DNA of 64,000 bases from Candidatus Nitrotoga sp. CP45. GTDB lineage: Bacteria > Pseudomonadota > Gammaproteobacteria > Burkholderiales > Gallionellaceae. Location of the stretch: the NCBI GenBank assembly GCA_945874105.1, contig CAMCFJ010000012.1:1-64000 (forward strand), in the 5' to 3' direction. The translations under genes and the position numbers were made by a program. Positions 10,513-39,140 of this stretch are shown here, piece by piece (positions within the stretch are counted from its first letter, which is position 1; every line of letters begins with the position of its first letter). The notes below the pieces were generated by a model, which was not told the DNA's origin, made no database searches, and saw nothing but the letters and a program-made list of their open reading frames with translations.

Positions 10513-13026
10513 ATGTCTAAGCACGTCATATTCTGCGCGGCGCTATTCACCCATGCCGCGACCAGGAAATCTGTTTACCTAATATCTTTGCTATTCTTGG
10601 CTTTCGCAGCATCCGCTAAAGCCAACGTGGCGGGTTCCGTGCTGAGCGTTATTTGCAACAATGAGGATCTGGGCGCCGAAGTGTTTATCAACGGTAAATT
10701 CAAGGGTAAATGTCCATTGGATTTATCTGTCCCTGCTGGCAAGTTGAAGTTGAAAGTTCGAAAGAAAGTGGATGCTTTTAGTGCTCGCCTTTTCGAGCAG
10801 GAAATCCGAGTGGGCAAAGGCGTGGACAAACATGTCAAAGTGCTATTAGGTGCGGCGCAACTTAACGCCAAAGGCAAGCAGCTCCAATCCAGGCGACTGA
10901 GCCTGGAGCAAGCCGAGATGAAGAAGCCAGGGAAAGATGGCAGGCACAAAACTGTGCCAATTCCAGCCGCCAACTTTGCCTTAACCAAGCTTGTCATTCC
11001 GCCGCCGGTCGTCGTTGCCGCCCCGGCCGTAATTAGCACTCCCGCCATTGTGTCGCCGCAGGTTGTGGTTAAGGAGCAAGCAGTAAATGAACCTGTTTTA
11101 TTGCCGCAGATTGTTGTTACTGCCAATCCGTTGGGAAGCGCCCTATTTGATCTCGTATCCCCGGTTTTAGTGCTGAGCGGAAAAGATTTATCGTTTCGAC
11201 AAGAGAGCACGTTAGGTGAAACGCTTTCCAAACTTCCAGGCATAAGCTCTACCTACTTTGGCCCGAATGCGAGCCGTCCCGTAATCCGCGGCCTCGATGG
11301 TGATCGCGTACGGATAATGCAGAACGGTGTTGGCATGCTCGATGTTTCGGCTTTGAGCCCCGACCATGCTACAACCGTAGACCCATTGGTGGTAGATCGG
11401 ATCGAAGTGGTGCGTGGCCCTGCAGCCCTGATGTATGGCGGTGCCGCAGTCGGAGGTGTCGTGAACACGCTCGACAACCGCATTCCCCAATCGTCTCTCG
11501 AAGGATTCACGGGCCGCGTTGAACCCCGGATTGGCGGTGCTGCCAACGAGCGTAGCGGTGCCGCCGTACTGGAAGCCGGCAATGGATTGGTTGCACTTCA
11601 CGCTGACGTTGCTTCACGCCGAACTGATGACCTCCGTATCCCCGGATTTGCACGATCAGACCGACAACGTGCCCTGGATGGCCCAGCAGTCGAACAGACT
11701 CAGGGACGCTTGATCAATAGCTCATCGAACAGCGACAGTGGCGCAGTGGGTGCCTCCCTCACGTTGGACAAGGGATATCTCGGCCTCTCATATAGCGACT
11801 TAAAAGCCAACTACGGTACCGTGGCGGAGCCGGACGTGCGCGTAGATATGAACAGCAAACGGTTAGGCGTGGCTGGAGAAGTGCGCGAGCTGGGCACGTT
11901 CATTCAGGGGGTGAAATTCAAATATGGCTATACCGATTATCTGCACAATGAGCTGGAGAATGGTGTCATTGCAACCACATTCAAAAACAAGGGGTATGAA
12001 TCACGGATAGACGCAACTCACGCCAAGCTGGGGCCATTCACCGGCGCCTTTGGAGTTCAGCTTTCAAATGTTGATTTCGCGGCGCTCGGCGCAGAGGCAT
12101 TCCTGCCGAAAGTCAATACCGACGCCAAAGCACTTTTCATTTATGAAGAAGCCGTATTCGGCAACATCAAGGTTACCGCAGGGGGTCGTAACGAACATAC
12201 CGCGGTAGAATCGGCCGGGGATAGCCCAACAACAACGCGCTTTGGTGCCGCCGAGACGCGCAAGTTCTCAGCCAGTAGCGGCGCCTTGGGCACGCTCTAC
12301 ACTTTCAATCAGAACATTGGCCTCGCTGCAAACCTTTCGCATACCGAGCGTGTGCCGACATACGCCGAGCTATTCGCGAATGGCAGGCATGTGGCAACTG
12401 GTCAGTTCGAGGTGGGTAATGCAACGCTTTCGAAGGAGAAATCAGACGGTGCTGATGTACAGCTGCGCTGGCGTTCTGGCCTGAATTCAGCAAGTATCAG
12501 CGGCTTCTACACACGCTTCCAGAACTACATTGCGTTGATCAAAAGCGGTCAGGAGCAGGAAGGGCTGACGGAGGCTTTATTTCGCGCGGTGAAGGCTGAG
12601 TTTCATGGTTTTGAGATGGAAGGAAAATTCCGGGTATATGAGGGAAATGGTAATCTCGACCTCAACCTGCGCGGCGACTATGTGCGGGCGAAGAACAGCG
12701 ACACGGGCGAGTCATTGCCGCGCATTTCCCCAATGCGTCTCGGCGCGGGGCTTGATTACCAGCTTGGCAAATTCAGTGCGAGGCTCGACGTTGCCCATTC
12801 TTTCAAGCAGGATCGAGTTGCAGAGAACGAACTACCCACCGATGGCTACACGCTGACCAACGCCGCGCTGAACTACCGATTTAAGGCACAAGCAGTAAAC
12901 TGGGATGCATACATCAAGGGCAATAATCTTTTCAATCGGGAAGCACGAGCGCATACATCGATTCTGAAGGAACTCGCCCCGCTACCGGGTCGCGGTTTTC
13001 TTATGGGTGTACGTGCTAATTTCTGA
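10513..13026 (+). CDS. ZnuD-like TonB-dependent receptor with N-terminal PEGA-like domain
   Basis: The protein imports a ligand, probably zinc or a metal complex, across the outer membrane using TonB energy. After a signal peptide (to about residue 38) comes an extra domain at about 42-115 (EVFINGKFKGKCPLDLSVPAG) that resembles PEGA repeats, then a Pro/Val-rich linker (about 150-195), and only then the TonB-box-like LPQIVVTAN. The plug contains GLDGDRVRIMQNGV, LSPDHATTVDPL and VRGPAALMYGGAAVGGVVN, all close to the ZnuD type. The barrel ends in Phe (GVRANF). At 837 residues it is longer than most ZnuD proteins because of the N-terminal domain. GGAG precedes the ATG. The neighbouring DUF2946-like gene supports metal uptake. 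The ligand is inferred. Confidence 0.88.
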   Translation: MSKHVIFCAALFTHAATRKSVYLISLLFLAFAASAKANVAGSVLSVICNNEDLGAEVFINGKFKGKCPLDLSVPAGKLKLKVRKKVDAFSARLFEQEIRVGKGVDKHVKVLLGAAQLNAKGKQLQSRRLSLEQAEMKKPGKDGRHKTVPIPAANFALTKLVIPPPVVVAAPAVISTPAIVSPQVVVKEQAVNEPVLLPQIVVTANPLGSALFDLVSPVLVLSGKDLSFRQESTLGETLSKLPGISSTYFGPNASRPVIRGLDGDRVRIMQNGVGMLDVSALSPDHATTVDPLVVDRIEVVRGPAALMYGGAAVGGVVNTLDNRIPQSSLEGFTGRVEPRIGGAANERSGAAVLEAGNGLVALHADVASRRTDDLRIPGFARSDRQRALDGPAVEQTQGRLINSSSNSDSGAVGASLTLDKGYLGLSYSDLKANYGTVAEPDVRVDMNSKRLGVAGEVRELGTFIQGVKFKYGYTDYLHNELENGVIATTFKNKGYESRIDATHAKLGPFTGAFGVQLSNVDFAALGAEAFLPKVNTDAKALFIYEEAVFGNIKVTAGGRNEHTAVESAGDSPTTTRFGAAETRKFSASSGALGTLYTFNQNIGLAANLSHTERVPTYAELFANGRHVATGQFEVGNATLSKEKSDGADVQLRWRSGLNSASISGFYTRFQNYIALIKSGQEQEGLTEALFRAVKAEFHGFEMEGKFRVYEGNGNLDLNLRGDYVRAKNSDTGESLPRISPMRLGAGLDYQLGKFSARLDVAHSFKQDRVAENELPTDGYTLTNAALNYRFKAQAVNWDAYIKGNNLFNREARAHTSILKELAPLPGRGFLMGVRANF

Positions 13027-13085: not shown

Positions 13086-13102
13086 TGCGACATCTTGTCG
13101 CA
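13086..13102 (+). promoter_or_regulatory. Perfect palindrome TGCGACA-N3-TGTCGCA, candidate shared operator
   Basis: Seven-base arms around a TCT spacer form a perfect inverted repeat 67 bases upstream of the TonB receptor gene at 13170. Nearly the same site, in the same orientation to its gene, lies upstream of the outer-membrane gene that precedes the second Cys-rich propeller (34465-34481). Comparing 26 bases around both sites in gene orientation, I count 20 identical. The spacing and symmetry suit a dimeric regulator; a metal-responsive OmpR-type regulator is one possibility. It could also fold as a terminator for the preceding gene, but no T-run follows. Confidence 0.65.
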
Positions 13103-13169
13103 TTCCCAACCTTCTGCTTTTCCCCTAGAATTTCTTGGCTCGAATAGTAATTATTTCAGGGGATAAGTT

Positions 13170-15509
13170 ATGGAGGTACGCAGTAATAAAATCGGCTTTA
13201 TTGCCTTGAGTTTGTTGGCTATGTCAGTCAGCCAGTCAGCCCGTGCAAGTCATGCCATTGACACCGAAGATACGGTTAGTGAACAGTTGCCCGAGATCAC
13301 CGTAATTGCTGGGCCGACTAGCGCTGGACGCGTCCCCCCGATAGTTAAAAAATTCAAACTGCCGCAGACAACCGAAAGCACGACAGCTAAAAAAATCGCT
13401 GATACGGTCAATATTGTTGATACTGAAGATGCGGTCAAATATATGCCCAGCATTTTTGTGCGCAAACGCAACTATGGTGATACACAGCCGGTAATGGCGA
13501 CGCGTACATGGGGAGTCAATTCCAGCGCGCGTAGTCTGGTATATGCAGATGATGTCCTGCTATCTGCGCTTATTGCAAATAACAATACTATTGGTGCTCC
13601 CCGCTGGGGAATGGTGGCTCCAGAAGAAATCCAGCGTATAGATATAATGTACGGTCCATTTGCTGCGGCGTATCCCGGAAATTCAATGGGTGCAGTAATG
13701 CAAATTACAACCAGAATGCCTGACAAATTTGAAGGTTCAATCAGCCAGACTATGGCTTTCCAGAATTTTCAACAATACAAGACCAGCGACACTTACCGCA
13801 CCAGCCAGACTGCTGCCACTTTTGGAAATCGATCAGGTAATTTATCTTGGTGGATCAGTGCTAATCATATGGATAGTGACAGCCAGCCGCTAACCTATAT
13901 TACTCAAGGTCAAGCTGCTGCTGAACCAGTCGCTCCGGCCAACACCACGGGCCGGATTACTGCAAATAATAAAATTGGTTTGTTCGCCGATGTATTGGGG
14001 GCAGGTGGGCTGCTACATACGCAGATGGATAATGCAAAAGTCAAAGTCGCTTACGACTTGACCCCTGCGCTACGTGCAACGTACACCTTCGGTTATTGGC
14101 GTAATAATGCCCAGTCCAATGTACAAACGTATCTGACCAGTACGGCACCAGCAACCATCGGCCAAGCGACCTTCGGTGGCGTAGCCGGATTTGCTTCAAG
14201 CAACTATGAGCTGATTCAGGAACATACGATGCAAAGTCTTGCTTTGAAGTCTGACACCAAAGGTATGTTTGACTGGGAGGCGGTTGTCACCGATTACAGG
14301 ATAAGCCGAGATAAACAGAATTCGCCATCCGGGGTTGGTGCTCTAACTACTTTCTCGACAACAGGCAGAACTTCTCTGATGGATGGTACCGGTTGGTCGT
14401 CTGTTGATCTGAAGGGAATATGGCGACCTGGTGGCAACCATGAAGTTAGCTCCGGTATTCACAACGATCAATACAGCTTGGATAATCCAGTCTTTAACAC
14501 GTTCAACTGGACTATCCCCAATAGCTTCAATACTCCATTGACTATCAGTCGCGGTAAAACCCAGACCAATGCGCTATGGGTTCAGGATGTCTGGAAAATT
14601 TTACCGGCGCTCAAGGCAACTTTGGGGGGGCGTTATGAGGATTGGAAAGCATACGATGGCTATAACCTTAACGGGACAACCGAAGTTTTCCAGCCAAAGC
14701 TGACCTCAACAAATTTTTCTCCCAAGGCGTCACTCTCTTGGGTAGCTTCTGCAGACTGGGTGATAACGAACTCATTTGGACAGGCATACCGCTATCCGAC
14801 AGTTTCCGAGCTTTTCCAGAGTGTTAACACAGGGCCAACGGTTACCATACCCAATCCCAATTTACGGCCGGAAAAAGTACTGTCTGATGAGTTGGTATTT
14901 GAGCGGGCATTACAGGATGGGCGGTTCAGGATTTCACTGTTCCATGAGGAAGTTTCAAATGCAATAATTTCCCAGACCAGCCCTCTCGTTTCCGGTAGCG
15001 GCATTCCCTTCACCTTCACGATGAATGTAGACAAAATACGCAATCAGGGCATAGAGCTGGCCATGCAAAAAGACAATGCATTTATGCATGGATTGGAACT
15101 TTCCGGCAGTGTGACTTACGTTGACTCCAAGATTCTTGCAAACAACAGTTGGAAAAGTCCCGCTGCACCAGCTCCCCAAAACACGATCTCTGTTGGCAAA
15201 AGAGTGCCGTATATCCCCGACTGGAGGGCTACGCTGGTCGCGACTTACCGCCCGGATATGAAATGGGCGTATACCTTGGCGGGTCGCTACAGCGGGAAAC
15301 AGTATTCAACAATGGATAATACTGACACCACTTCAAATGTTTATGGATCGTTTGACAGTTTTGTTGTCATTGATGCCCATGCAAACTTTAAAGTGAACAA
15401 AAATTGGAACGCAGCAATGGGAATTGATAATATTAACAACTATAAATACACCCTTTTTCACCCATTTCCGCAGCGCACATTTGTTGCTAATCTGAAATAT
15501 AAATTTTAG
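13170..15509 (+). CDS. TonB-dependent outer-membrane receptor, ligand unknown
   Basis: This 779-residue receptor has a signal peptide ending near RASHA, a TonB-box-like LPEITVIAG (about 40-48), a plug domain with RSLVYADDVLLSA and YGPFAAAYPGNSMGAVMQI, and a long beta-barrel finishing in Phe (NLKYKF). The plug is unlike the ZnuD-type receptor just upstream, so this is a different subfamily. An AGGGG ribosome site lies before the ATG. The next genes encode a Cys-rich Asp-box propeller (90 bases on) and a thioredoxin-like protein, and I infer that all three work together. A perfect palindrome at 13086-13102 probably controls the unit. Copper or another thiophilic metal is a guess from the Cys-rich partner. 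Confidence 0.88.
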   Translation: MEVRSNKIGFIALSLLAMSVSQSARASHAIDTEDTVSEQLPEITVIAGPTSAGRVPPIVKKFKLPQTTESTTAKKIADTVNIVDTEDAVKYMPSIFVRKRNYGDTQPVMATRTWGVNSSARSLVYADDVLLSALIANNNTIGAPRWGMVAPEEIQRIDIMYGPFAAAYPGNSMGAVMQITTRMPDKFEGSISQTMAFQNFQQYKTSDTYRTSQTAATFGNRSGNLSWWISANHMDSDSQPLTYITQGQAAAEPVAPANTTGRITANNKIGLFADVLGAGGLLHTQMDNAKVKVAYDLTPALRATYTFGYWRNNAQSNVQTYLTSTAPATIGQATFGGVAGFASSNYELIQEHTMQSLALKSDTKGMFDWEAVVTDYRISRDKQNSPSGVGALTTFSTTGRTSLMDGTGWSSVDLKGIWRPGGNHEVSSGIHNDQYSLDNPVFNTFNWTIPNSFNTPLTISRGKTQTNALWVQDVWKILPALKATLGGRYEDWKAYDGYNLNGTTEVFQPKLTSTNFSPKASLSWVASADWVITNSFGQAYRYPTVSELFQSVNTGPTVTIPNPNLRPEKVLSDELVFERALQDGRFRISLFHEEVSNAIISQTSPLVSGSGIPFTFTMNVDKIRNQGIELAMQKDNAFMHGLELSGSVTYVDSKILANNSWKSPAAPAPQNTISVGKRVPYIPDWRATLVATYRPDMKWAYTLAGRYSGKQYSTMDNTDTTSNVYGSFDSFVVIDAHANFKVNKNWNAAMGIDNINNYKYTLFHPFPQRTFVANLKYKF

Positions 15510-15598: not shown

Positions 15599-16882
15599 AT
15601 GAGTAATACAGTTATCGTGAGTTTCTGGATCCAGCGCCTGAGCGCGTGGCTGTTTGGTAATTGCCGTAGGGTCGGGTTGATTTCCTGTTTGGCAGTCAAT
15701 GGGATGTGCATGGCAGCAGACCATGCCGGTCATGGCTCCGCGCAGCCTCGTGATATGGCAAAGATATGGAAAGCTGCACTTTCCCGTCCGCCGCTTGCGG
15801 TCGCTACCACGTTTGATGCAAGCGGTAAGCTGTGGCAGGCATTCGTGAAAAACGGTCATGTTATGGTGAGTCAGTCTGACAATCAGGGAAAAACGTTTAG
15901 TACGCCAGTTCCAGTTAATTCAGAATCTGAGTTAGTGGCCGCAGTAGGCGAGAACCGTCCAAAAATTCTGGTGGGGAGCAATGGCAATATCTACATTTCC
16001 TACACCCTGAACCTGGAGACGCCTTTTGCCGGAAATATCCGTTTCAGCCGCTCGGTAGATGGAGGAAAGAGCTTTTCCGCACCTATTACGGTTAATAACA
16101 ATCTGGATCCCATAACCCACAGTTTTGATGCAATGGGTGTAAATGAGCGCGGTCAGGTTTACATCGTCTGGCTGGATAAGCGCGATATCTCGATAGCCAA
16201 AAAAAATGGGGAGAAATACAATGGGGTGGCGATCTATTACGCCATATCTGATGATGAAGGCAAAACTTTCCATGCCAACATCAAAGCCGCGGATCATTCC
16301 TGCGAATGCTGCCGCGTGTCGATGGCAATCGATAAGGATGGCACTCCGATTATCGTGTGGCGGCATATTTTCGAAAAGAACAAACGCGACCATGCCATGA
16401 TGCGGCTTGATGGTAAGTCTCAGCCTATCCGTCTAAGCTACGAAAACTGGGAAGTTGATGCCTGCCCTCATCATGGCCCAGCAGTATCCATAGCTAACGA
16501 CGGAAATTATCATTTCGTTTGGTTCAGCAACTCGACTGAACGACACGGGTTGTTTTATTCCTACGCTTCCGATCAAGGTAAGCATTTTTCTCGCCCATTA
16601 AATTTTGGAAACTTCCAGGCTCAAGCCTCACACCCGCATGTTTTGAGCTTAGGTCAACGCGTCTTCATCGTCTGGAAAGAATTTGATGGTATGGCTACCG
16701 GCATATATCTGATAAATTCCATTGATGGGGGTAATCTCTGGTCGACCCCCAAAAAAATTGCATCCACTACTGGCGCTTCAGATTATCCATTCCTGGTCAG
16801 TCATGGCGATAAAAATTATCTCTCCTGGAATACCGATAAAGAAGGCTATCGTCTCATTAATTTATCTGGAACCGCGCAATGA
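15599..16882 (+). CDS. Exported Asp-box (BNR/sialidase-like) propeller with CECC motif
   Basis: Automated pipelines would probably call this 427-residue protein an exo-alpha-sialidase, but I see no catalytic Arg triad and do not support that. It has a signal peptide (hydrophobic part about 25-40) and five Asp-boxes, such as SDNQGKTF (93-100) and SVDGGKSF (152-159), which mark beta-propeller blades. A cluster of cysteines, CECCR at 235-239, and CPHHGPA at 289-295 suggest a metal or redox site on the propeller. The paralogue at 31842-33251 shares both motifs and most of the C-terminal half. The gene follows a TonB receptor and overlaps the thioredoxin-like gene by 4 bp (ATGA). I infer periplasmic handling of a metal or metal complex. 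Confidence 0.8.
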   Translation: MSNTVIVSFWIQRLSAWLFGNCRRVGLISCLAVNGMCMAADHAGHGSAQPRDMAKIWKAALSRPPLAVATTFDASGKLWQAFVKNGHVMVSQSDNQGKTFSTPVPVNSESELVAAVGENRPKILVGSNGNIYISYTLNLETPFAGNIRFSRSVDGGKSFSAPITVNNNLDPITHSFDAMGVNERGQVYIVWLDKRDISIAKKNGEKYNGVAIYYAISDDEGKTFHANIKAADHSCECCRVSMAIDKDGTPIIVWRHIFEKNKRDHAMMRLDGKSQPIRLSYENWEVDACPHHGPAVSIANDGNYHFVWFSNSTERHGLFYSYASDQGKHFSRPLNFGNFQAQASHPHVLSLGQRVFIVWKEFDGMATGIYLINSIDGGNLWSTPKKIASTTGASDYPFLVSHGDKNYLSWNTDKEGYRLINLSGTAQ

Positions 16883-17385
16883 AATCGAGTGAAACAATAA
16901 TTATATGTCTGCTCGGTTTATCGCTATGCTTAAGCTCCGCTTGTTCTTCGGCGGCACAAATATCCCATCATTTTGTACGCGGCAGTTATCAGAAAATTGT
17001 TTCTGCCCGTGCGGGCAAACCTTTCATTGTCAGTTTATGGTCTCTCGACTGCACCTATTGCCGCGATGATATGGTGCTATTTGGTGAACTATCAAAAAAA
17101 TACCATGACCTCGACTTGGTGCTGATCTCCACCGATACCCCGGAACAAATAAAGGAAATTGAGCGTGCACTACTAAAATACCCTCTGAAGAAAGCCGAAT
17201 CCTGGATTTTTGCTGACAGTTTCGTTGAGCGCTTGCGTTATGAAGTGGATACGCAATGGTATGGAGAGCTCCCCCGCACTTATTTTTACGATGCGCAAGG
17301 GCATGCGTTAGCACTTAGCGGTAAGTTGGACTATGGCCAAATTGAGCGATGGATAAGCAAGAATCGTAAAGGAAAACATGTTTAA
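16879..17385 (+). CDS. TlpA/ResA-like periplasmic thioredoxin-fold protein
   Basis: This 168-residue protein has an N-terminal signal sequence with a Cys-rich end (LSLCLSSACSSAAQ) that may be a weak lipobox or a normal cleavage site. The thioredoxin-like domain has the redox pair CTYC at 58-61 and the cis-proline segment LPRTYFYD. Family members reduce or oxidise cysteines in exported proteins, including those of copper and haem sites. Its start overlaps the end of the Cys-rich propeller gene (ATGA), which makes the CECC cysteines of that protein a plausible substrate. It overlaps the following M48 lipoprotein gene by 8 bp, so transcription continues. Confidence 0.85.
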   Translation: MKSSETIIICLLGLSLCLSSACSSAAQISHHFVRGSYQKIVSARAGKPFIVSLWSLDCTYCRDDMVLFGELSKKYHDLDLVLISTDTPEQIKEIERALLKYPLKKAESWIFADSFVERLRYEVDTQWYGELPRTYFYDAQGHALALSGKLDYGQIERWISKNRKGKHV

Positions 17386-31841: not shown

Positions 31842-33251
31842 TCAATCCAGCGGAATTAACCGATAACCTTCATGCTTGCTGTTCCACGACACGAAAACAC
31901 CTTGGGCATTGCTTAATAAAAACGGAAAGTCAGTTCCACTTGCACTTTCTGCGATTGATTTGGCAGGCGACCAGGTTTGCCCCCCATCGGTTGACTGCAT
32001 TACCAGAAGTTGCGTTTTGGTGCCGTCATACTCAGTCCAGGTCAGGATGACATGCTTCCCCTGAGCCAGGATATCAGGATGACTAGGCAGTTTTTTCGGT
32101 GTGCCGAACGACAGCGGAACTGAGAAATTTTGCCCCCGGTCGGATGAATAGGCATAGAACAAACCTTGGCGCGCGCTGCCTTGCGTAAACCAGGCAATAT
32201 GGTAGCGACCATCGTCAGAAATGGAAATCGCAGGCCCATGTTCAGGACAGCCCTTGATCTTCCAGTCGTCAAAGGTGACGCGCCACGATAGCGGTTCTTT
32301 GCCATCAGTTTGCGTTCTGGAAAGACCATGATCGTGGATGCCGCCTGGATAAATGAAACGCGCGAATAAAACAGGCTGGCCATCATTGTCAAAAGCAGTG
32401 GCTATGCGGCAACATTCGCAAAGGGTGTCGGAGAATTTTCGGTTGATGTAATTTTGACTATTTTGGCCGTCAATGGTGGTGTAATAAACCGCGTTACCAA
32501 GTTGTCTCCAGTCGGTGCGGTCGCGTTCGTCAAGCCAGAAGACATAAGCTTGACCGGATGAATTTAAAACCAGCCGACCCTGAAATGAATTAGCTTCGGA
32601 GGCTTGGTTGCTCAACGTTTTTGGCGTTGAAAAACTGCGGCCATTATTGGTGGAGGTGCTGAAATATACGGCTACTGGCTGAGCGCCTTCAGCCGAATAG
32701 ATGACAGAAATTTTTCCGCTGCGATCCACGACGATGCCAGTCCGATTTTCACCGCTCACTTTGATGCGCTGTGATTCCTTGTTGATACGCACAGGCGCAC
32801 TGAAGGTCTTGCCCAGGTCAGTTGAATAATCAACATAGACATGCCATTTGTCTGGCACGACTCGCCATAAACGGTTATCGGGACCGAAAGCGGCGGTAAC
32901 GTACAGGCTCCCGCCCTGAGGACGGCGTTTTGAATCGGTTGTGCCGGCCTTAGCATCATCATGGTGGGCATAACTAGCTGCGCTAAATGCCATTGTGCCG
33001 AGCAGCAACAGGAAACCGAGCAGCCGACCACTGCTCAGTGAGACGCGCTCAATAAACCAGTCTGAAGCTTTAGGGCAATGCTGAACAAGTCCCTCCGTTC
33101 GGGCTGAGCCTGTCGAAGCGATTTGCAACTTATTGATGTGCAAGGAGTGCGTTTCGACAAGCTCAACGCGAACGGACTTGTTCAACGTAGCCTTAGTATT
33201 ATTTATGCAAACGGTTTTTCCGGTAATCGAATAATCAGGCAAAGTTGTCAT
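31842..33251 (-). CDS. Second CECC-type Asp-box (BNR) propeller protein
   Basis: This 469-residue paralogue of the 15599 gene shares CECCR (278-282), CPEHGPA (335-341), the segment YHIAWF, and the closing SWN....GYRLI. Asp-boxes include STDLGKTF (143-150) and STDGGQTW near the C-terminus. The export signal lies unusually deep, at about residues 75-95 (RLLGFLLLLGTMAFSAASYA), because roughly 35 residues before it are encoded by a palindromic dispersed repeat (33082-33184). TTG codons inside the repeat are possible later starts; no strong ribosome site decides. It follows the outer-membrane gene at 33297 after 45 bases and is presumably co-transcribed with it. Catalytic sialidase residues are not apparent. 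Confidence 0.78.
   Translation of the reverse strand: MTTLPDYSITGKTVCINNTKATLNKSVRVELVETHSLHINKLQIASTGSARTEGLVQHCPKASDWFIERVSLSSGRLLGFLLLLGTMAFSAASYAHHDDAKAGTTDSKRRPQGGSLYVTAAFGPDNRLWRVVPDKWHVYVDYSTDLGKTFSAPVRINKESQRIKVSGENRTGIVVDRSGKISVIYSAEGAQPVAVYFSTSTNNGRSFSTPKTLSNQASEANSFQGRLVLNSSGQAYVFWLDERDRTDWRQLGNAVYYTTIDGQNSQNYINRKFSDTLCECCRIATAFDNDGQPVLFARFIYPGGIHDHGLSRTQTDGKEPLSWRVTFDDWKIKGCPEHGPAISISDDGRYHIAWFTQGSARQGLFYAYSSDRGQNFSVPLSFGTPKKLPSHPDILAQGKHVILTWTEYDGTKTQLLVMQSTDGGQTWSPAKSIAESASGTDFPFLLSNAQGVFVSWNSKHEGYRLIPLD
33082..33184. repeat. MITE-like palindromic repeat inside the propeller gene's 5' end
   Basis: Arms of about 37 bases face each other: TGAACAAGTCC, CCGTTCG and GCCTGTCGAAGC on the left, and GCGTTTCGACAAGC, CGAACGGACTTGTTCA on the right. 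The TTCGACAAGCTCAGC-like core belongs to a family of dispersed intergenic repeats; a single arm also occurs at 40052-40076. Here it lies in the open reading frame and is translated through without a stop, upstream of the signal peptide. Confidence 0.75.
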
Positions 33252-33296: not shown

Positions 33297-34325
33297 TTAA
33301 AATACAAATACAAAACGATAAGTAACCCGGTAGTCGGGTGGTGTTTGATAGCCGTTTAAGTTTTTGACTATCGGTGTGCCTATCGACAATGCGGTATTCC
33401 AATTCTTGCCGCCAGAATATCTTATTCCTGGCGAGAGATAAATGATATTGCTACCCGAGTTTGGATCAGTCAGGCCAGCAGTTTTTTGACGATCCTGCCA
33501 CTGACCATTTAGCTCCAAAATGCCCGTCCACGAGGAATTGTTGCTACCGACGAATAGGTTATTTCTGGCCATGCCAACGAAAGCATAAGAAAGTGCGACA
33601 TTGTAGTCAAACGTATCGCCGAGATTGGTATGTTGCACCCCGTTAGTTGCCACCGTGTAGAGGATACTGCTATCCAACGAGACCTTTCCCATGGCGCGAG
33701 TAAAGGAAAAACCGGCAGCAGGATTCCATGCGCCGCCGCTGGGCTGAGAGTGTGTTTCAAGATTTTCATTGTCGCCGTGGTGGCCGACAGTTTGGACGTT
33801 GGTTGTGCCTGGGGTAGTGAGGGCTACGACTAGTGATAAATGGTTTAGATTGTCTTCGGTATGAAAAAAACGATATTGACTGAACAGGGAGGCGCCGCCA
33901 AATCCACCTGGGTCTCCTTGACTAAGAACTTCATTGCCATGTTCACTGGGTGAGCGCAGGTCAAAGCGCTGCACGTAAGGAAGTCTGATACCCAACGTCC
34001 AGTTATCGCTCACACCATAGGCCGCAAATATGGACGGAATGAAAAGTGATTTTAGACTGTGAACATCACCATGGGCATCGTCGATAGCATTATTTTTCAG
34101 ACCAAGTAGTCTGGAATCTGAAGGAGTGTCAAAACCAGTAAATTGGGCGATCAGACCACCTGCCCACATACCGACAGGAAGCGTGATGCCGCTTTGAGTG
34201 ATAATTGGCGATGCGGTACCAATGCCGAAACCCATGGAGCCATGATCGGCCCGAGCGGTATTGCTGTAAATGGCGAATGCTGATGCTAAATACATCACCA
34301 GCGGAATTTTTTTCGAAAGACTCAT
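33297..34325 (-). CDS. Predicted outer-membrane channel (MetA-like/'transporter' family)
   Basis: The 342-residue protein has a signal peptide (MSLSKKIPLVMYLASAFAIYSNTARA) and a beta-rich mature chain ending in aromatic FVFVF, as outer-membrane barrels do. Segments such as WTLGIRLPYVQRFDL and FGGASLFSQYRF match the MetA-pathway/'transporter' barrels often found in metal or aromatic-compound operons. Several His-rich loops (DDAHGDVH, GHHGDNENLETH) could bind metal. It is first in a two-gene unit with the CECC propeller, mirroring the TonB receptor-propeller pair at 13-17 kb, and a matching palindrome lies 139 bases upstream. The substrate is unknown. Confidence 0.75.
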   Translation of the reverse strand: MSLSKKIPLVMYLASAFAIYSNTARADHGSMGFGIGTASPIITQSGITLPVGMWAGGLIAQFTGFDTPSDSRLLGLKNNAIDDAHGDVHSLKSLFIPSIFAAYGVSDNWTLGIRLPYVQRFDLRSPSEHGNEVLSQGDPGGFGGASLFSQYRFFHTEDNLNHLSLVVALTTPGTTNVQTVGHHGDNENLETHSQPSGGAWNPAAGFSFTRAMGKVSLDSSILYTVATNGVQHTNLGDTFDYNVALSYAFVGMARNNLFVGSNNSSWTGILELNGQWQDRQKTAGLTDPNSGSNIIYLSPGIRYSGGKNWNTALSIGTPIVKNLNGYQTPPDYRVTYRFVFVF

Positions 34326-34464
34326 AACTTATCCTTGTGATTTATAGTGTCGGAATGCCAATTACTCATTGAACAGACATTCATGAATCCGTATTGCTTA
34401 GTAAGCCTATGCCTGCATTTGCACAGCAGGGCTAGAGAGTAACTCAGTTCATCAAGCGTGAAAA

Positions 34465-34481
34465 TGCGGCAAATTGTCGCA
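34465..34481 (-). promoter_or_regulatory. Palindrome matching the 13086 operator, second copy
   Basis: On the plus strand the site reads TGCGGCA-AAT-TGTCGCA; on the minus strand, the direction of the gene it precedes, TGCGACA-N3-TGCCGCA. It matches the perfect palindrome upstream of the 13170 TonB receptor, including flanking GG before and TT after. It lies 139 bases before the outer-membrane gene that leads the second propeller unit. One arm mismatch is present. Confidence 0.6.
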
Positions 34482-34602: not shown

Positions 34603-34780
34603 ATAAACCCAGATAATCCATTAGATGCTGATTCGCGTGATATGACGACGCATTCCCCCCTTTGCAAAAGGGGGGCTAGGGGGGATTTGAGCGTTGCGGG
34701 GACACAAAAATCCCCCTCAGTCCCCCTTTTGCAAAGGGGGAGGCTGGTTAAATTGCCTAATGGATTATCCGGGATAAATA
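34603..34780. mobile_element. Composite inverted-repeat (MITE-like) element
   Basis: An outer pair, GATAATCCATTAG at 34612-34624 and its complement at 34757-34769 with similar flanks, encloses an inner pair of about 37-base arms at 34651-34688 and 34706-34743. The inner arms consist of CCCCCTTTGCAAAAGGGGG-type sequence with an AGGGGGGATTT tail. No transposase is present. The nested symmetry and the lack of coding potential fit a non-autonomous element or repeat cluster. G-runs may also form stable RNA structure. Confidence 0.65.
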
Positions 34781-34846: not shown

Positions 34847-35974
34847 ATGGTTTGTTTGATCATGGCCGGCTGCGGACACGCGCAACTCAGCGTGCTCAAA
34901 GCACTTGCCCAAAAGCCATTGGGCGTTGATGCGGTGCTGATTACCCCCAGCCCTTACCAAATTTATTCCGGCATGTTGCCGGGATGGATGGCCGGACATT
35001 ACAGCTTGTCGGAATGCCGGATTGATCTGCGCCCGCTGGCAGAATCCGCCGGGGCACGCCTGATCCTTGCCCAAGTCGTTGGAATAGATGCCATGCGGCG
35101 CCGGGTCTCGCTCTCAGATGGCACCCACCTCGATTACGATGGTTTGTCACTCGATGTGGGTAGCGAGGCCGATTTATCATTGTTGGAAGCAGCGGGGGAG
35201 CGTTTGCTGCCGATTAAGCCGCTGGGGAATTTTGTAAATCGCTGGCCCGCTATCCTCAACGCTGCATCGCAACAGGATAATTACCGGCTCGTGGTGGTCG
35301 GCGGCGGCGCGGCTGGCGTTGAGCTGGCATTTGCCGCGCAATATGCTTTTGCCACGCAGCGATGCAAGCAAGCTTCAGTTGCGTTGGTCGCTTCGGAGAG
35401 CGGCATCTTGCCGGGCCATGCGAGCGGAGTAAAGCACCGCGCCCGTGCGCTGTTGGAGCAGCGCGGCATCACGCTGGTTCAGGCGCAGGCAGTGGGTACC
35501 TCGGAAGGGGTCGCGCTTTCCAACGGGCAATCCCTGTCTGCAGATTGCATCATTGCGGCGACCGGCGCGCGTCCACCCGCTTGGCTGCTCAACTCCGATC
35601 TCGCGCTGGATGAGCAGGGCTACATCCTCGTGGATGCGCAGCACCGAAGCGTCTCCCACCCCAACGTATTTGCTGCCGGAGATGTGTGCGTGCGCGGTGA
35701 CATTCAGCTTGCGCATTCGGGCGTACACGCGGTATTTGCTGGGCCAGTATTGGCGCACAACCTGATCGCCGCCATCAACGGACACGCACTTGAAAGCTAC
35801 CGGCCGCGCAAAAAATCCTTGTACTTGCTGGCGACCGGCCCGAAGCACGCCATCGCCTCCTGGGGCGCGTTCAGCGCGCAAGGCCACTGGGTGTGGGTTT
35901 GGAAGAACTGGATCGATCGCCGTTTCATGCACAAGCATGGCGTATTGAATCAGGCACTCAAGGAGACAGCATGA
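34847..35974 (+). CDS. NDH-2-like FAD/NAD(P) oxidoreductase
   Basis: This 375-residue flavoprotein has a first dinucleotide motif at the very start (MAGCGHAQLSVLKAL, GxGH form), a second at about 147 (VVVGGGAAGVELA), and the FAD-closing NVFAAGDV near 280. It resembles type II NADH dehydrogenases and the flavin domain fused to SelD in some bacteria; no SelD domain is present. A cytoplasmic or membrane-peripheral electron-transfer role is inferred. Its stop overlaps the start of an ECF sigma gene (ATGA), so the enzyme is co-expressed with that sigma and its anti-sigma factor. Confidence 0.85.
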   Translation: MVCLIMAGCGHAQLSVLKALAQKPLGVDAVLITPSPYQIYSGMLPGWMAGHYSLSECRIDLRPLAESAGARLILAQVVGIDAMRRRVSLSDGTHLDYDGLSLDVGSEADLSLLEAAGERLLPIKPLGNFVNRWPAILNAASQQDNYRLVVVGGGAAGVELAFAAQYAFATQRCKQASVALVASESGILPGHASGVKHRARALLEQRGITLVQAQAVGTSEGVALSNGQSLSADCIIAATGARPPAWLLNSDLALDEQGYILVDAQHRSVSHPNVFAAGDVCVRGDIQLAHSGVHAVFAGPVLAHNLIAAINGHALESYRPRKKSLYLLATGPKHAIASWGAFSAQGHWVWVWKNWIDRRFMHKHGVLNQALKETA

Positions 35975-36591
35975 CCCGCTTTTTAAATAGCGCCGAAAAT
36001 CTGCTGGCTGATGCTGCATTTCTGGAAGATATTCGCAGACAGATGATCAAGTTCGCCACGCTTCAGCTCGGAGACGGCCACTTGGCAGAAGACGCAGTAC
36101 AGGAAGCATTGATCGGTGCGTTGAAGAACGCATCTTCATTTGGTGGGCGTGCCGCACTCAAGACTTGGATATTTGCCATTCTGAAAAACAAGATCGCGGA
36201 TACGCTGCGATACAAGCAACGGGTGGTGAATGCGAGCAGCTTGTTGCGCGAGGAAGATGAGGACGAAGATCTTTCTGAATTGTTATTCGACCGTAAAGGC
36301 CACTGGCAGCAAGATGAACGACCAGTAGCGTGGGGCAATCCCGAAGCATCACTGCGCGAGACGCATTTCTGGAGCATGTTTGAAGCATGTCTGGAACGCT
36401 TGCCGCCCAAGCAGGCGCGGGTGTTCATGATGCGCGAATTTATCGAGCTGGAAGTCGATGAGATTTGTGCCGCCGTGGATTTGACCATTAGCAATCTACA
36501 TGTGCTGTTACATCGCTCGCGTCTGCGTTTGCGCGAGTGCATCGAAAACAAATGGTACCTGCAAGGAGAGCGAAAAAATGCATTGCCGTAA
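35971..36591 (+). CDS. ECF-type RNA polymerase sigma factor
   Basis: The 206-residue protein has a sigma region 2 (DAVQEALIGALKNASSFGGR, then LKTWIFAILKNKIADTLR) and a region 4 helix-turn-helix near 155-190 (LPPKQARVFMMREFIELEVD, then LHVLLHRSRLRLRECI). An acidic linker (REEDEDEDLSELL) lies between. It redirects RNA polymerase to a stress regulon. The ATG at 35971 overlaps the flavoprotein stop; the ORF extends upstream to 35893, but that part is inside the flavoprotein gene. Its own stop overlaps the zinc anti-sigma gene by 14 bases. Confidence 0.93.
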   Translation: MTRFLNSAENLLADAAFLEDIRRQMIKFATLQLGDGHLAEDAVQEALIGALKNASSFGGRAALKTWIFAILKNKIADTLRYKQRVVNASSLLREEDEDEDLSELLFDRKGHWQQDERPVAWGNPEASLRETHFWSMFEACLERLPPKQARVFMMREFIELEVDEICAAVDLTISNLHVLLHRSRLRLRECIENKWYLQGERKNALP

Positions 36592-36766
36592 CGCTACGCG
36601 TCTGATGTCCGAGGCGCAAGAACGACCCCTCTCGATCACTGAGCGAATCTCACTGAAGCTGCATCTGATCATGTGCAGCGGCTGCCACAATTTTAAAGAT
36701 CAGATGACTATGCTCAGATTGATGACGCGTGCTTATGTGAAGAGAAAAAATGAGCACCATGAATGA
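36578..36766 (+). CDS. Zinc-finger anti-sigma factor (ZAS/zf-HC2), minimal
   Basis: This protein of only 62 residues carries the ZAS pattern His29-x3-Cys33-x2-Cys36 (LHLIMCSGCHNF), plus His2/Cys3 near the N-terminus as possible extra ligands. ZAS proteins hold their ECF sigma factor and release it when the zinc thiolates are oxidised or when another signal arrives. No membrane helix is present, so this one is soluble and probably senses a cytoplasmic signal. It overlaps the sigma gene by 14 bases and is the last gene of the flavoprotein-sigma-anti-sigma operon. Confidence 0.85.
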   Translation: MHCRNATRLMSEAQERPLSITERISLKLHLIMCSGCHNFKDQMTMLRLMTRAYVKRKNEHHE

Positions 36767-36786
36767 AAAATGGCAATTTTAAAAAC

Positions 36787-36811
36787 GAAAAAAGGGTAGC
36801 GTCACCTTTTT
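36787..36811. terminator. Rho-independent terminator between the sigma operon and katG
   Basis: AAAAAAGG and CCTTTTTT pair around a 9-base loop, with further T residues to 36813 on the plus strand and a matching A/T run on the other side. The structure can stop both the anti-sigma gene (plus) and katG (minus), which converge here. Confidence 0.6.
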
Positions 36812-36857
36812 TTTCTCATCCCATGAGCTTTCGAGTCCATTATTTATTCCATCAGCA

Positions 36858-39140
<2,283 letters not shown>

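Follow-up and report, generated by a model that had tools for sequence, protein, structure and literature searches.

The window, by which we mean the whole 64-kb (64,000-nucleotide) stretch of DNA that was analysed, comes from a nitrite-oxidising bacterium of the genus Nitrotoga and holds two gene units, each headed by a gene for an outer-membrane protein or probable barrel and followed by a gene for a BNR-repeat propeller. A short palindrome lies ahead of each unit. The features concerned are:

13086..13102, plus strand: operator 1, TGCGACATCTTGTCGCA, a perfect 7-3-7 palindrome, TGCGACA-N3-TGTCGCA
13103..13108, plus strand: weak -35-like hexamer TTCCCA abutting operator 1 (sequence; similar hexamers in orthologues)
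13126..13131, plus strand: -10-like hexamer TAGAAT, 23 bases past operator 1 (sequence; orthologues)
13170..15509, plus strand: first gene of unit 1, a TonB-dependent receptor of 779 aa (PF00593, PF07715)
15599..16882, plus strand: propeller 1, BNR repeats with CECCR and CPxxGP motifs (PF13088; alignment; AlphaFold and Foldseek)
16879..17385, plus strand: TlpA-like thioredoxin-fold protein, probable last gene of unit 1 (PF00578, barely over the cut-off)
31842..33251, minus strand: propeller 2, a paralogue of propeller 1 (PF13088)
33297..34325, minus strand: first gene of unit 2, a probable outer-membrane barrel protein of 342 aa (barrel from reading of the sequence)
34436..34441, minus strand: poor -10-like hexamer TACTCT, likewise 23 bases past operator 2, with 3/6 consensus bases (sequence; orthologues)
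34459..34464, minus strand: weak -35-like hexamer TTTTCA abutting operator 2 (sequence; orthologues)
34465..34481, minus strand: operator 2, TGCGACAATTTGCCGCA (TGCGACA-N3-TGCCGCA), one mismatch from the palindrome

Re-reading of the window confirmed the sequences and coordinates that a first-pass annotation had given for both sites, along with their distances to the barrel genes, 67 bases for operator 1 (13103-13169, ATG at 13170) and 139 bases for operator 2 (34464-34326, ATG at 34325). The likeness claimed for the flanks also stands, with a corrected count of 21/26 identities in the best 26-base register instead of 20/26. As had been remarked, the 64-kb window contains no third copy at up to two mismatches. 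The whole 2.5 Mb genome contains three sites with at most one mismatch, namely operators 1 and 2 and one on contig 7 inside a coding gene, a ribonuclease E/G-like ORF named by reading. Sites at up to two mismatches carry no signal in this genome, because 16 were found against 19 for a reversed-pattern control, and a scan of the window alone at up to three mismatches returned six against 4.38 expected, which is not significant. The significance of the sites therefore derives from comparative evidence rather than from counts within the window alone.

The two units had been described as paralogous, which holds for the propellers (37-39% identity) and fails for the barrel genes, between which there is no similarity (best E 0.20); shared ancestry of both barrel genes was rejected on this score. 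The 342-aa protein of unit 2 is without a Pfam or NCBIfam match. Its candidacy as a relative of a Cys-rich outer-membrane family (E 0.004 over 39 residues) was not convincing. The NCBIfam TlpA score of the last product of unit 1 falls far under the cut-off. An AlphaFold model of propeller 1 has a mean pLDDT of 81 and, in a Foldseek comparison with the PDB, matches propeller lectins and sialidases, with query TM values of 0.42-0.60 among the 50 matches listed. Alignment of the propellers reveals invariant cysteines at positions 235, 237, 238 and 289 with a histidine nearby, residues that would suit a putative metal or disulfide site. The propeller family with CECCR and CPxxGP motifs is known to Pfam only as BNR repeats.

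Several other elements surround the two units. Directly upstream of operator 1 lies a second TonB-dependent receptor gene carrying a PEGA segment (10513-13026, plus strand), whose product is closest to ZnuD at 355 bits, far under the cut-off of 950. Repeated CCCCCTTTGCAAAAGGGGG-like inverted repeats that resemble a REP-type element occupy 34640-34750, in the interval that separates the small barrel gene from the next one, and at 35893-39137 a catalase-peroxidase gene adjoins one for an ECF-type sigma factor.

Propeller relatives occur in 36 of 120 genomes of the family, from which we compared 40 regions, 34 around propeller 1 and six around propeller 2. Of the 34, 28 have a site upstream of propeller 1 that departs from the palindrome at no more than one base (the exceptions being L061, L064, L072, L074, L075 and L082, with L064 holding 0.75 kb upstream only), and it is kept also where the window's receptor has no match above 80 bits, as in L057. 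Around propeller 2, five of six regions have a site with 0-2 mismatches and the sixth ends short of that point. A set of 80 named loci, kept from 423 relatives and overlapping the family set, was searched over 4.5 kb upstream. Sites with at most one mismatch were found at 34 of the 51 nearest loci (L185-L235, mostly Nitrosomonadales), at 5/14 intermediate loci (L236-L249, mostly gammaproteobacterial) and at none of the 15 most distant, Methylobacter-like loci (L250-L264; 14 Methylococcales and one gammaproteobacterium); the misses include truncated loci, since some loci end early. By comparison, 299 permuted palindromes gave means of 0.03, 0.007 and 0.02 in the nearest, intermediate and distant sets and never more than one.

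The 120 family genomes contain 107 exact copies of the palindrome, spread over 63 of them, and a single copy of the reversed pattern, so this is not the common, randomly placed motif that the first-pass annotation had set against its own proposal. All 107 sites were inspected, 14 of them in the propeller regions compared above and the other 93 as the family sites described below. That the two palindromes are chance occurrences without function would agree with the near-expected number of sites in the window at up to three mismatches and with the genome-wide two-mismatch count, which does not exceed its control. The 107 to 1 ratio, the conserved place ahead of related operons and the fixed distance to a -10 hexamer described below nevertheless leave this idea a negligible probability.

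RegA is a redox and oxygen regulator, and the regulator of both sites is most likely RegA, a member of the ActR/PrrA/RegA family. Both operators fit the inverted repeat GCGNC-N5-GNCGC of the published RegA, PrrA and RegR motifs, and that they are an inverted repeat of one family supports the earlier suggestion that a single, presumably dimeric, regulator serves both loci. The genome carries regB and regA on contig 24 (33460-35288). Its RegA combines a receiver with a Fis-type helix-turn-helix (PF00072 and PF02954), and its helix-turn-helix shares the stretch LNMHRRTLQR, residue for residue, with PrrA (1UMQ) and chain 3RQI. RegB was taken as the best of 16 kinase-like matches in a family-HMM search; it carries GGTTNPF, fitting GGXXNPF, which part of an earlier report gives as the RegB quinone-binding motif (PMC8191878), and a cysteine within TRCKNTL that is a putative counterpart of the redox Cys265 of Rhodobacter capsulatus. 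NCBIfam scores of both proteins are under the curated cut-offs (200 against 250 bits for RegA, 245 against 350 for RegB).

OmpR-type winged-helix response regulators generally bind direct repeats, a feature absent from both sites, which are inverted repeats. The first-pass annotation had entertained a metal-responsive regulator of this type, and the metal-linked gene content in relatives would be in keeping with one. The evidence instead favours RegA, a response regulator whose helix-turn-helix is of the Fis type and to which the inverted repeats are suited, and the co-occurrence of the site with RegA, both order-wide and within families, further disfavours an OmpR-type protein; we consider it very improbable.

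Since RegA is near-universal in the family (113 of 120 genomes), co-occurrence there is uninformative, and the test was made across the order in a sample of 200 genomes. Eighty-six of these counted as RegA-positive at E 1e-40 or better, although incomplete genomes may hide RegA. The exact site is present in 43/86 RegA-positive and 3/114 RegA-negative genomes (Fisher p 4e-16); the reversed control, itself slightly commoner in RegA-positive genomes, is present in 8 and 3, respectively (p 0.04). Within the 17 families holding both kinds of genome, the exact site occurs in 16 of 36 RegA-positive and 2 of 42 RegA-negative members (permutation p 0.0013). The RegA-negative genomes with a site are G260, G291 and G307, and the other four sampled members of the genus of G307 all have RegA.

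The site is also frequent beside the regulator's own genes. At least 15 sites in the order-wide sample lie within 2.5 kb of regA against about 0.14 expected, a figure that assumed 78 sites and 3.0 Mb per genome (the table sums to 77 sites, 74 of them in RegA-positive genomes). Fourteen are upstream of regA, 11 of them at 1.26-1.49 kb, which should be the expected place of the regB promoter, and one is 25 bases past the regA end (G196). Direct reading of the gene after the site, confined to the family, placed 12 of the 93 family sites beside regB, and an operator at regBA, beside regB or upstream of regA, recurs in relatives from several genera and families. Six distant loci (L229, L231, L237, L239, L241 and L246) have regBA adjoining the propeller operon, upstream of the propeller genes and pointing away from them. 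Operators with 0-2 mismatches stand just ahead of regB in five of the six, while in L229 close sites occur only beyond the propeller. ExbB-like, TonB-like and receptor-like ORFs, named by reading, lie on the other side in L239 and L241; in L237 the receptor was not resolved by ORF picking. In L197 the propeller operon is followed, after a double operator, by another regA that is truncated where the contig stops. The genome's own regBA region (contig 24:33460-35288) has no site at up to three mismatches, so autoregulation through this operator seems absent here.

These distributions also bear on whether the palindrome is bound by some other dimeric protein, such as a dedicated copper sensor, that would control regBA as well and so make the link to RegA indirect. 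Half of the RegA-positive genomes (43/86) are without the exact site, and many identifiable neighbours of the family sites are copper or respiratory genes, both of which would be compatible with such a protein. The motif nonetheless fits the published RegA, PrrA and RegR boxes, the site follows the presence of RegA also inside families, and distant lineages, examined for regBA alone among regulators, have it next to the propeller operon. A regulator other than RegA thus appears improbable, if less so than one of the OmpR type.

Downstream of the operators the spacing is regular. Across the 39 site-bearing propeller loci, the hexamer that starts exactly 23 bases past the operator resembles TATAAT, with a mean of 4.03/6 matches, and 74% of the loci have at least 4/6 at this offset; the average over all offsets is 1.82. 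The counterpart of TAGAAT is TATAAT in most Nitrotoga orthologues shown, and the -10-like hexamer of unit 2 is TATTCT in L068 and L071. Hexamers abutting the operator (TTCTCA, TTCCCA, TTTTCA) lie 17 bases ahead of the -10, at the -35 position, which would place the operator centre at about -44. When the flanks of the 93 family sites were pooled over both directions (182 flanks), the peak again fell at 22-23 and was weaker (2.24 and 2.18/6 against 1.57). The second-best -10 offset among these 39 loci, 38, equals 23 + 15. Overlapping double operators, 15 bases apart with a common central CG, occur in L187 (8189-8220), L232 (3677-3708), L239 (1934-1965), L241 (1825-1856) and L197 (8016-8047); the one in L187 precedes a flavohaemoglobin-like ORF and the one in L232 a TonB-receptor-like ORF, both named by reading.

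Computation shows the sites and how they are conserved, the distances to the promoter hexamers, the co-occurrence with RegA across genomes and the recurrent position beside regBA; binding by RegA, activation as opposed to repression, the signal and the copper theme are inferred. In the proposed mechanism, the RegA dimer of the RegB/RegA redox two-component system would bind the inverted repeat GCGAC-N5-GTCGC through its Fis-type helix-turn-helix and sit just upstream of a weak -35 and a -10, centred at about -44, where it would recruit RNA polymerase as a class II activator. A change in the quinone pool, oxygen or copper state would be the trigger, and both operons, one for the TonB receptor, propeller and TlpA-like protein and one for the outer-membrane protein and propeller, would be switched on jointly. 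We assign a probability of about 0.86 to this reading of both sites as RegA operators.

The same promoter architecture bears on the direction of control. A weak -35 with a conserved -10 is the usual look of an activator-dependent promoter, and in these loci the -35 hexamers are weak and the -10 is conserved at fixed spacing. RegA might instead act as a repressor that occludes the -35 region, so that the genes are released rather than activated; the operator does abut the -35-like hexamer, and part of the R. capsulatus literature describes RegA as repressing some genes and activating others (PMC5359404). Set against the promoter features just described, repression seems unlikely, and RegA as activator is the reading we follow below.

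Some published work on RegA in other bacteria speaks against the assignment. According to part of PMC5506826, RegA of At. ferrooxidans did not fit these motifs. Excerpts of a Methylomonas study report no appreciable RegA binding in ChIP at tbdr and tonB promoters, whose expression fell in a regA mutant (PMC13274454). A search of the open-access literature, several parts of which were swamped by unrelated word matches, returned neither a paper naming the exact palindrome as a RegA operator nor a report of RegA control of these loci, a weak negative.

A metal or redox target set, as the first-pass annotation anticipated, is supported in relatives by the genes beside the 93 family sites. Reference proteins for this census were chosen from the same sites, with up to two labels per site, and the census is therefore descriptive and not a test. 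It labelled 73 of the 93 sites and left 20 without a label. Labels were Cys-rich outer-membrane proteins (17), TonB-dependent receptors (14), RegB (12), PCu(A)C (9), an FtsX-type operon (5), two-domain multicopper oxidases (4 plus 1), cytochrome c (4), MutL (4), Csp1-like proteins, lipoproteins, cytochrome c' and a membrane-protein fragment (3 each), TonB and OEP (2 each), and one each of propeller, SCO, NosZ, COX1 and cytochrome bd. At nine of the 73 labelled sites every label (FtsX-type, MutL, membrane-protein fragment, OEP, lipoprotein) is silent on copper and redox, and a further 16 carry nothing informative apart from the Cys-rich outer-membrane protein. Representatives were checked for PCuAC, SCO1-SenC, COX1, cytochrome bd, TonB and cytochrome c'. 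NosZ and Csp1 (L091, L103) score over the NCBIfam cut-off; the L088 multicopper oxidase stays under the one for nitrite reductase, and four of the receptors checked resemble models for copper, haem and zinc receptors at scores far under the cut-off. Together these neighbours suggest a redox/copper regulon, with copper as a putative common theme drawn from the company of neighbouring genes.

The label met most often beside the operator is that of an outer-membrane protein whose N-terminus is rich in Cys (L089, L090, L097, L102, L105, L107, L113, L157, L170, L174, L180, L278 and L292), and in some of these loci a TlpA-like protein comes next.

Nitrotoga fabula has been reported, in a source consulted in part, to have a cbb3-type heme-copper oxidase (PMC6050957). 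A broader interpretation, which we offer as possible with the odds somewhat against it, is that RegB/RegA in Nitrotoga and many relatives would have been specialised into an oxygen- and copper-gated switch for a self-contained outer-membrane copper capture machine, made up of a TonB receptor or small barrel, the new Cys-rich propeller family and a TlpA-like protein, which would deliver copper to cbb3 oxidase and other copper enzymes. The regulon would have shrunk in this genome to essentially two propeller operons, and in gammaproteobacterial lineages the circuit (regBA, ExbB-like, TonB-like, receptor and propeller) would form one locus.

The analysis offers a candidate regulator, and a setting in redox, oxygen and perhaps copper, for two orphan operons whose propeller family is uncharacterised. 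It also supplies a sharp operator and promoter spacing for RegA in these Betaproteobacteria, for which the portions of earlier work consulted give loose motifs or none, and so strict a motif would let one predict from sequence which genes RegA controls in nitrite- and iron-oxidising Gallionellaceae. The link that RegB/RegA may make between oxygen sensing and copper supply also becomes directly testable.

Comparison with known systems extends to the regulator protein. Part of the literature on R. capsulatus RegA describes copper binding and a copper/oxygen-driven disulfide formed by Cys156 (PMC9147068). We checked 30 family RegA proteins (L126-L155), 16 from the genus of the window and 14 from others. 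All 16 same-genus loci resemble R. capsulatus in having a cysteine just ahead of the helix-turn-helix, whereas 13 of the 14 other-genus proteins differ from it in having none there (L140 has the cysteine). Some of the genomes without this cysteine have the operator, so the residue is not needed for the regulon; copper/oxygen gating of RegA in Nitrotoga is plausible by analogy and would not be essential for the regulon.

The operators themselves were compared with the RegA motif of R. capsulatus (SSGNVRDNHYSNCSS), the PrrA motif YSCGGC(5)GWCRMA of R. sphaeroides and the RegR box of Bradyrhizobium (GNGRCRTTNNGNCGC), all as given in part of PMC5506826. Across site and strand, a scripted comparison gave 0-2 mismatches to PrrA and 1-2 to RegR. 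PrrA sites share the half-sites and 5-base spacing of the operators; operator 2 matches the PrrA motif without mismatch on one strand, opposite to the RegA-motif strand, and is its single exact match in the 64 kb, while for operator 1 the count is one mismatch whichever strand is read. RegR has the same core, with one mismatch at best per operator, and its lone exact match in the window lies outside both operators. Operators 1 and 2 both match the R. capsulatus RegA box with no mismatch, although a match to this motif alone is weak evidence because the motif is loose, with 31 matches in the 64-kb window. Unlike that box, the operators described here are near-perfect 7-3-7 palindromes that are rare in the genome and keep a constant spacing to a -10-like hexamer.
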